This document shows positions 3,241 through 22,893 of a DNA stretch of 64,000 bases, piece after piece. Each line of letters opens with the position of its first letter. The first letter of the stretch is position 1. Location: contig PMNA01000016.1 in NCBI GenBank assembly GCA_003162055.1, forward strand, positions 1 through 64,000, read 5' to 3'. Both the position numbers and the translations under genes were made by a program. The notes beneath the pieces are model-generated. The model did not search any database and had not been told where the DNA came from. It saw only the letters and a program-made list of their open reading frames with translations. Source of the stretch: Actinomycetota bacterium. GTDB taxonomy: Bacteria; Actinomycetota; Thermoleophilia; Gaiellales; Gaiellaceae.

Positions 3241-3846
3241 TCACTCGCTCCAGCGCGGGTCGCTCTCCCAGGCCTCGAGGCGATTGAGCGCCTGCGCCAG
3301 TTCCACGGCACTGAACTCGAAGGGGCGAGCGTAGGGAACCGGAACATGACGAGCGTGGAAGCCCTGGCCGGCGGCCGCCTCGCGTAGAAAACTGACGGCC
3401 AGCCCGTGCGTGACGACGAGGATGACGGGCTCCGTGCGAGCCAGCACGATCCGGAATCCGCGAGCGTAACGTACCGCCGCTTCGCGGCGACTCTCGCCTC
3501 CCCCCGCCGGGCTCTCGTCGGACTCGTGCGTGTGCGCCCAGGAAACGTAATTCTCAAGCGGGCCTTGCTCGAAGGCGCCGACGCGAATGTCGTTCAGTTC
3601 CGCCAGCTCGAGCCAGGGCGGCTCGGGCTCGTGCCCGGCCAGAGCGATCTCGGCCGTCCGCCGCGCGCGCGGAAACTCGCTGGTCACGTAGAGATCTATC
3701 CGGCGTCCGACCAACGAGCGCCCGAGCGCGCGGGCCTGCTCCTCCCCGCGCTCGGTCAGCGGGCAGCGGCTGTTCGGCTCGCCGTTGACGACGCCCCGGG
3801 CCGAGCACTCACTCTCGGCATGGCGGGTAACGAGGATCGTTTGCAT
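3241..3846 (-). CDS. Histidine phosphatase family protein (phosphoglycerate mutase-like)
   Basis: Cytoplasmic branch-1 histidine phosphatase; the substrate cannot be told from sequence. The phosphoacceptor motif RHAE is at about residues 8-11, the second arginine in SEFPRARRTAEIA, a catalytic glutamate near ELNDIRVG, and the second histidine in VVTHGLA. With ATG at 3846 the product is 201 aa; a GTG three codons upstream is an alternative. It starts about 10 bp after the M23 peptidase gene ends, so the two probably share a transcript. Confidence 0.85.
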   Translation of the reverse strand: MQTILVTRHAESECSARGVVNGEPNSRCPLTERGEEQARALGRSLVGRRIDLYVTSEFPRARRTAEIALAGHEPEPPWLELAELNDIRVGAFEQGPLENYVSWAHTHESDESPAGGGESRREAAVRYARGFRIVLARTEPVILVVTHGLAVSFLREAAAGQGFHARHVPVPYARPFEFSAVELAQALNRLEAWESDPRWSE

Positions 3847-21187: not shown

Positions 21188-21192
21188 ATAAA

Positions 21193-21266
21193 TCGGGGTG
21201 CCCAGATTTGAACTGGGGACCTCTCCGACCCGAACGGAGCGCGCTACCAGGCTGCGCCACACCCCG
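21193..21266 (-). tRNA. tRNA-Pro (anticodon CGG)
   Basis: A 74-nt cloverleaf on the minus strand. The acceptor stem is CGGGGTG with CACCCCG and discriminator A. The D-arm contains GGCGCAGCCTGGTAGCGC, the anticodon stem CTCCG/CGGAG encloses loop TTCGGGT (anticodon CGG, reading CCG codons), and the T-arm is CCCAG/CTGGG with loop TTCAAAT. The CCA end is not encoded. Confidence 0.95.
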
Positions 21267-21383
21267 AGCGCCCCATACGTTAGCTACTCCGTCACGGATT
21301 CGACACGAAGCGCGGCCGAAGCGTGCGTCTCTCGTATGAATTTGCCCGCTACGTTGCCTGTGTTGCCAACGAGAGGAGGAGAA

Positions 21384-22568: not shown

Positions 22569-22597
22569 TTGCCTCCGTCGCCTCGACGCTCTATGCT
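22569..22597 (+). promoter_or_regulatory. Sigma-70-type promoter for the 22723 leader and gene
   Basis: TTGCCT (22569-22574) and TATGCT (22592-22597) are separated by exactly 17 bp. Transcription would start near 22604, giving a leader of about 119 nt before the ATG at 22723. Confidence 0.6.
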
Positions 22598-22603
22598 GCA
22601 GAT

Positions 22604-22722
22604 GAAATGAATGTCTTGGCTCGGCGGTCCGCCTGATGGCCGCCACACATAATTTGCGGAGGAACGGATAGACCCGCTATGTGCGCTTGCACGAGCGGGT
22701 TTTCTTTTTCGAAAGGAGCGAG
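22604..22722 (+). promoter_or_regulatory. Attenuator-like leader RNA (candidate cis-regulatory element)
   Basis: The leader contains a GGCGG/CCGCC hairpin (about 22622-22644), a GCGGAGGAACGGATAGAC segment, and then an intrinsic terminator before the ribosome-binding site AAGGAG. GCGG near 22656 can pair with the CCGC that forms the left terminator arm, giving a possible antiterminator. It does not match any riboswitch consensus I can recall (fluoride, cobalamin, ydaO, TPP and preQ1 were considered). It could also be a short stable sRNA of about 100 nt. Confidence 0.5.
22672..22706 (+). terminator. Intrinsic terminator inside the leader of the 22723 gene
   Basis: Stem ACCCGCT (22672-22678) with AGCGGGT (22694-22700), an inner GTGC-GCTT-GCAC hairpin and an immediate T-rich run (TTTTCTTTTT). 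It is the best-formed Rho-independent terminator in the window, and it sits 16 bp before a start codon on the same strand. Confidence 0.75.
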
Positions 22723-22893
22723 ATGGCCAACCACCTGACGCCCGAGGAGATCGCCAAGGAAATGGGGATCGACCGTGACGAAGTGATCCGCGTCTGCATG
22801 AAGGAGGGCGTGCCGATTTATCAAGGCAAGATCGACAAGTACCTGTTCCAGGCGCAACTCACGGCACTGGGCGTAGCGGCACCCCGTAGGTAA
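22723..22893 (+). CDS. Small excisionase/MerR-like HTH protein, 56 aa
   Basis: A 56-aa protein starting MANHLTPEEIAKEMG, a helix-turn-helix pattern followed by EGVPIYQGKIDKYLFQAQL. That layout resembles the DNA-binding half of excisionase or MerR-type small proteins. The ATG is supported by AAGGAG 6-7 nt upstream; an earlier in-frame start would lie within the terminator and is rejected. It is preceded by an attenuator-like leader. No phage genes are nearby, so a local regulator is more likely than an excisionase. Confidence 0.75.
   Translation: MANHLTPEEIAKEMGIDRDEVIRVCMKEGVPIYQGKIDKYLFQAQLTALGVAAPRR

Follow-up and report, generated by a model that had tools for sequence, protein, structure and literature searches.

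In S. meliloti, trpL is a leaderless leader ORF associated with transcription attenuation (PMC7298713), and in mycobacteria leaderless regulatory short ORFs with poly-cysteine runs have been described (Canestrari et al. 2020, as cited in PMC9031893 and PMC13236596). Most in vitro studies covered by a review (PMC9031893) show stimulation of leaderless translation by IF1 and IF2, and its inhibition by IF3. The leader described here lies on the plus strand of a 64,000-nucleotide stretch of contig PMNA01000016.1, from a Gaiellaceae bacterium of the class Thermoleophilia (hereafter, the window), upstream of a gene for a 56-aa helix-turn-helix (HTH) protein. It shares with S. meliloti trpLE(G) and other trp-type leaders a predicted start at the leader ATG, a short ORF, a hairpin at the end of the ORF and a terminator; unlike these, it has neither a run of regulatory codons nor a conserved peptide, a search for a 2:3 antiterminator gave none, and the regulated gene codes for a small HTH protein. 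It also resembles the mycobacterial polycysteine ORFs, as these are presented in the papers citing them, in being an actinobacterial, putatively leaderless and regulatory short ORF upstream of a gene; however, it contains no cluster of Cys codons, and it includes an intrinsic terminator and a hairpin spanning the stop codon. As outlined in the accounts of vmlR and topAI-yjhQ, these antibiotic-responsive attenuators likewise use an upstream ORF (uORF) ahead of the regulated gene to sense translation, whereas here neither a conserved arrest peptide nor a resistance gene is present. No earlier description of such a device was found in the open-licence literature.

Known attenuators that sense amino acids or drugs need particular codons or an arrest peptide. 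This leader keeps the start of its ORF, the frame, the length and the stop (UGA), but not the peptide, and a sensor of initiation or termination can thus be tested directly. If this reading is true, it would offer a first way into the regulation of a small HTH protein that occurs only in Thermoleophilia and is widespread among them, and short leaderless ORFs, which are ignored by gene callers, would be recognisable in uncultured bacteria from comparison alone.

Promoter and short reading frame

Direct reading of the sequence gives the hexamers TTGCCT (22569-22574) and TATGCT (22592-22597), separated by a 17-bp spacer, exactly the promoter that a sequence-only reading of the window had proposed. 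It is absent from the list produced by a generic sigma-70 scan because its hexamers score below the 9/12 threshold; most homologous leaders of family f1 carry a -10 hexamer of the form TATNCT and a TTG in the -35 region. Nine bases past the -10 hexamer opens a nine-codon reading frame, ATGAATGTCTTGGCTCGGCGGTCCGCCTGA (22607-22636), which codes for MNVLARRSA and ends with UGA (22634-22636). The layout of promoter, hairpin and terminator given by the sequence-only reading stands, but this putatively leaderless uORF, which is the central part of the leader, was missing from it.

In 80 homologous leaders an ATG or GTG is found 6-10 nt past the -10 hexamer, followed by 8, 9 or 10 codons, so that the aligned uORFs always measure 24, 27 or 30 nt plus the stop. 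From this distance the transcription start is predicted at 22604-22607, that is at the uORF ATG or at most 3 nt from it, and the distance fits a leaderless mRNA, in which transcription begins no more than about 5 nt from the start codon, suggesting a leaderless transcript. The 80 leaders are upstream regions from other Thermoleophilia genomes and were chosen for the presence of an ORF of 7-12 codons; the start was therefore tested independently, by calling promoters without any reference to ORFs. With these blind calls, 75 ATGs were found at offsets 6-10 in 80 loci of families f1-f3, against 0.84 per offset further downstream, and 16 ATGs at the same offsets in 17 loci of family f7.

The stop codon is nearly invariant: the uORF ends with UGA in 79 of the 80 leaders and with UAG in the remaining one, whereas the 80 accompanying HTH genes end with UAG (50), UAA (15) or UGA (15). 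The difference in UGA usage (79/80 versus 15/80) gives a Fisher p of 1e-28, which is uncorrected for relatedness, and the counts overstate independence since the 80 loci are kin. Because most of these HTH genes end otherwise, the UGA of the uORF is not a general habit of these genomes. Of the three f1 loci outside the selected set, L022 has an in-frame insertion of 60 nt, L106 has a GTG-led frame of 15 codons with a UGA stop, and L083 has neither ATG nor GTG and shows a CTG-led frame that also ends with UGA.

Codons 2-9 of the uORF vary freely. Indeed, close pairs show 92 non-synonymous versus 20 synonymous differences. Changes are not in excess at third codon positions, and the peptides have no enriched or shared amino acid beyond the Arg-Ala imposed by the pairing of the first hairpin, P1 (see below). 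Given this divergence, a function of the peptide itself was discarded: a trp-type amino-acid sensor was rejected, as there is no cluster of regulatory codons and the peptide diverges between leaders, and an arrest peptide is unlikely. Instead of the peptide, evolution has kept the predicted start at the end of the transcript, the reading frame, the ORF length and the UGA; as far as the alignments indicate, the conserved properties of the uORF are those that matter to a ribosome, not to a product. Readthrough of the UGA was also considered and set aside: past the UGA, 55 of 71 leaders have an open frame up to and across the terminator, but in the next frame this holds for nearly as many (47). 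Readthrough is possible as a part of the mechanism, the frame behind the UGA not being clearly kept open.

A covariance model of the leader, built from 51 sequences, recovers the leader of the window with an E-value of 2.5e-14, its own sequence being among the 51 used for training, and detects a single copy in each of 32 of 61 Gaiellales genomes, located at the HTH gene. A second match in the window (3346-3431, E 0.059) has no U-tract and was taken as chance. The succession of a promoter, an ATG or GTG 6-10 nt later, a short ORF and a terminator is present a single time in the window, at this site, and in none of 20 simulated windows. The attenuator-like layout seen in the sequence-only reading is thus found again upstream of the homologous genes, where the leader is conserved, so that it passes the refutation test set with that reading; by these comparisons it is kept across at least three families of Gaiellales, in uncultured soil actinobacteria.

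Family f7 retains the predicted leaderless start as well as the terminator, while its ORF varies in length and often extends through the terminator; in L104, L110, L112, L116, L124, L232 and L235, a putatively leaderless ORF of at least about 38 codons crosses it. In this family, translation could directly disrupt the terminator. Most leaders of family f5 contain a putatively leaderless ORF of 10-12 codons, and several of them have a hairpin that lacks a U-tract. In L133, L240, L241 and L243, of the same family, putatively leaderless ORFs of 10 codons are followed by a long hairpin of the GACCCGTCCC/GGGACGGGTC type, which has no U-tract and adjoins the Shine-Dalgarno sequence. By this comparison of families, the start looks older than the fixed stop; moreover, since f7 keeps the start but not the stop, it is doubtful that one mechanism serves all of the class. 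The f8, f10 and f11 loci that were inspected have no such device, showing a short leader only. In a related genome (G120, locus L051, at about 1589), the HTH gene is seemingly missing only because the leader enters a stretch of N.

Hairpins of the leader

P1 spans 22623-22644, with arms at 22623-22629 and 22638-22644, and it was identified by covariation and by RNAalifold. Its folding energy (-13.2 kcal/mol) is, alone, not beyond that of shuffled sequences (z -1.2); the alignment of 51 leaders, however, shows that five of six pairs have changed on both sides, and that pair 23-38 is formed in 51/51 leaders, as GC, CG or AU depending on the lineage. The loop of P1 holds the UGA of the uORF, so that P1 corresponds to the 1:2-type hairpin that lies over the end of the leader ORF in ribosome-mediated attenuators. 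Over P1 and the terminator together, 92% of the cells of the alignment are paired, a share that falls to 32-51% if the partner is shifted by 1-3 columns. Double changes occur in 43 cells against 10.7 in shuffles; RNAalifold returned the same two hairpins from a separate alignment of 54 leaders. The first hairpin noticed in the sequence-only reading is therefore present, as P1, and it is kept in the homologs with compensatory changes.

P1 is followed by a linker (22645-22670) that is purine-rich (ACAnnnGAGG-like) and loosely conserved, as seen from its low information content; a co-evolving partner of the linker was sought in the aligned leaders and none was found. Its resemblance to a Shine-Dalgarno sequence suggested a ribosome landing site, a candidate that was discarded after inspection by eye, no start codon being present at a fitting distance.

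The intrinsic terminator (22671-22709) consists of a stem at 22671-22701 and of a U-tract reaching 22709. Its folding energy of -20.1 kcal/mol (z -5.3) was equalled in 0 of 200 shuffles, and compensatory changes are found in the stem, which is kept in the homologs, in agreement with the strong terminator initially proposed; only its distance from the HTH gene has to be corrected, as the U-tract ends 13 bp, and not 16 bp, before the ATG. The z-score for the folding of the whole leader is -2.2. In genus g5 the stem has changed to AGCTCG/CGAGCT with retention of the pairing. At the g5 loci L076, L080 and L085, tandem hairpins with U-tracts are located between the uORF and the HTH gene, the first of them showing a compensatory stem change.

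An antiterminator formed by GCGG and CCGC, as suggested by the sequence-only reading, can be drawn, but co-evolution offers no comparative support for it. In a comparison of duplex energies between true and swapped partners, no co-evolving pairing was found besides P1 and the terminator, which alone showed a clear gain from the true partner (z -7.6 and z -10.4, respectively). The pairing of segment U1 with the 5′ arm of the terminator is strong (-10.9 kcal/mol), yet foreign partners do as well, and it was rejected.

Proposed attenuation by a ribosome and other readings

The comparison of homologous leaders establishes the promoter, the frame of the uORF with its UGA, P1, the terminator and the linkage to the HTH gene; from these, we infer that the uORF is translated and that the level of readthrough is set by P1 together with the ribosome. 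The leader is, in our judgement, probably a ribosome-dependent (translation-responsive) transcription attenuator, in which the leaderless ORF counts by its start, its length and its UGA, and not by its peptide. It has the promoter, the leader with an intrinsic terminator before the gene and the short leader ORF that are typical of ribosome-mediated attenuators, and it may well work like one, although it lacks two textbook features, the regulatory codons and the antiterminator.

According to this proposal, RNA polymerase would start at the A of the uORF ATG or next to it, yielding a leaderless transcript, on which a 70S ribosome can therefore load once the AUG emerges. The ribosome would read 8-10 codons, the identity of which is irrelevant, and would terminate at the UGA in the P1 loop; when it stands on the last codons or on the stop, P1 would be open, and when the uORF is unoccupied P1 would form. 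In the trp and his leaders the 1:2 hairpin is the pause hairpin, and P1 may be likened to it. Termination would be the default, releasing an RNA of about 100 nt, and the HTH gene would be transcribed only via readthrough. In the homologous loci the median distance from the U-tract to the ATG of the HTH gene is 24 nt, and no promoter is visible behind the terminator and before the gene; such a distance is too short to accommodate a separate promoter, and expression of the HTH gene must therefore pass the terminator.

As to the direction of the response, we lean only slightly towards occupancy of the uORF raising readthrough. The signal sensed would most likely be how fast ribosomes initiate on the leaderless AUG or terminate, with RF2, at the UGA, and not an amino acid. 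No co-evolving antiterminator was found, and the proposal therefore lacks a physical connection from the ribosome to the terminator; moreover, a ribosome parked at the UGA falls short of the terminator, which is about 35 nt downstream. The classical candidate for this link would be a pause stabilised by the P1 hairpin and released by the ribosome.

Termination might instead be set by the HTH protein, or by another RNA-binding protein, bound to P1 or to the linker, with the uORF only tuning the stability of the RNA. Such autoregulation, for which ribosomal-protein leaders provide a precedent, would suit a protein that has an IF2_N-like HTH and no control other than this leader, as well as the conservation of P1 as a structure; however, the sequence of the P1 arms is free between lineages, as exemplified by pair 23-38, the linker shows little conservation, and neither the exact frame nor the UGA would be explained, so that we regard it as unlikely. 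The terminator could also be constitutive and partial, a fixed brake holding the HTH protein at a low level, the leaderless micro-ORF serving only to stabilise the short RNA. The empty search for an antiterminator, and the families in which the device is absent and the gene is driven directly, agree with this possibility; nevertheless, we consider it improbable, since it accounts neither for the near-invariant UGA in the P1 loop nor for the compensatory changes of P1.

A promoter and a terminator that delimit a short RNA would also be expected of an independent sRNA of about 100 nt, similar to rnTrpL, with its own leaderless ORF and acting in trans, the readthrough being incidental; indeed, attenuated leaders can act in trans (PMC7298713). 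An unpaired conserved seed was nevertheless not found, and the same gene is always linked to the leader while the other neighbours change, which leaves this explanation with a low probability. The short sRNA suggested as an alternative in the sequence-only reading may thus arise as a by-product, but an independent sRNA gene would not account for a unit that keeps its place, at a median of 24 nt, before the same HTH gene in changing surroundings. Finally, a metabolite riboswitch of an unknown class, which the arrangement of leader and terminator had made conceivable, can hardly be entertained, as the leader contains just two simple hairpins, with hardly any conserved unpaired nucleotides besides the AUG and the UGA, and little conserved sequence in the linker and loops apart from the UGA. 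The covariance search against Rfam, proposed as a check in the sequence-only reading, was run and gave no family above the gathering threshold; at gathering and relaxed thresholds the only match was a chance one (sar RNA, E 5.8), and there is no tRNA at the leader locus. Both trp-type attenuation and a riboswitch are therefore unlikely, since the peptide is unconserved, no amino acid is enriched, and neither an aptamer-like core nor an Rfam match is present.

The HTH protein and its surroundings

The HTH gene (22723-22893) is preceded by the Shine-Dalgarno sequence AAAGGAG (22712-22718), as read directly, and a GGAG-type sequence is found also in the homologs. Its product belongs to a class-specific family, as defined from homologs, AlphaFold (AF2) and Pfam, with the consensus MANHLTPEELxxExGxxRxEVIxxCxEEGVPIYxGKIDKxLF. 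The family is present in 224 of 299 Thermoleophilia genomes, and no convincing member was found outside the class in 296 sampled genomes of the phylum. Phage records gave no match, and a phage origin of the gene was therefore discarded.

The AF2 model (pLDDT 86) consists of a strand, two helices, a wing and a further helix. The best Foldseek matches were RacA and BldC (E 0.07-0.4, TM-score about 0.5-0.6), with IF2 ranking lower, which makes the protein a candidate, short of significance, for a BldC/MerR-type DNA-binding protein, while a sequence search of solved structures gave no significant match. The Pfam domain IF2_N (PF04760) scores 22.6 bits, below its cut-off of 25.3, and 12 of 39 family members match it with E up to 0.01; hhalign against the IF2_N domains taken from the IF2 proteins of Gaiellales aligned only the HTH core. 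The protein appears to have the HTH core and the predicted fold in common with the IF2_N and BldC/RacA/Xis-type domains, but it differs from them in that the Pfam score stays below the cut-off, the Foldseek E-value is 0.07 at best, and it has invariant residues of its own (H4, T6, P7, E9, C25, P31, G35, D38 and L41). From sequence and model, it appears to resemble the IF2_N/BldC-like HTH domains, and a role in translation is no more than a lead. Among the invariant residues, His4 and Cys25 make a metal or redox role conceivable.

The resemblance allows the attenuator to be extended into a loop, which we regard as possible but doubtful: by the position of the ribosome, and by no codon or peptide, the leader might measure translation itself, either as 70S loading on the leaderless AUG or as RF2-dependent release at the UGA, and control a class-specific factor similar to the IF2 N-domain, possibly feeding back on translation. 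The idea of such a feedback is appealing because of the stimulation of leaderless translation by IF1 and IF2 (PMC9031893).

The neighbours of the HTH gene vary between genomes and include Nif3, Ku, an alpha/beta hydrolase, MoeA and an exonuclease, all named from their translations without a family search, with the exception of Nif3; they gave no hint of function. Upstream in the window, a tRNA-Pro (CGG) on the minus strand (21192-21267) overlaps the 5′ end of the longest version of a plus-strand SSB-like ORF, the true start of which is probably located further downstream.
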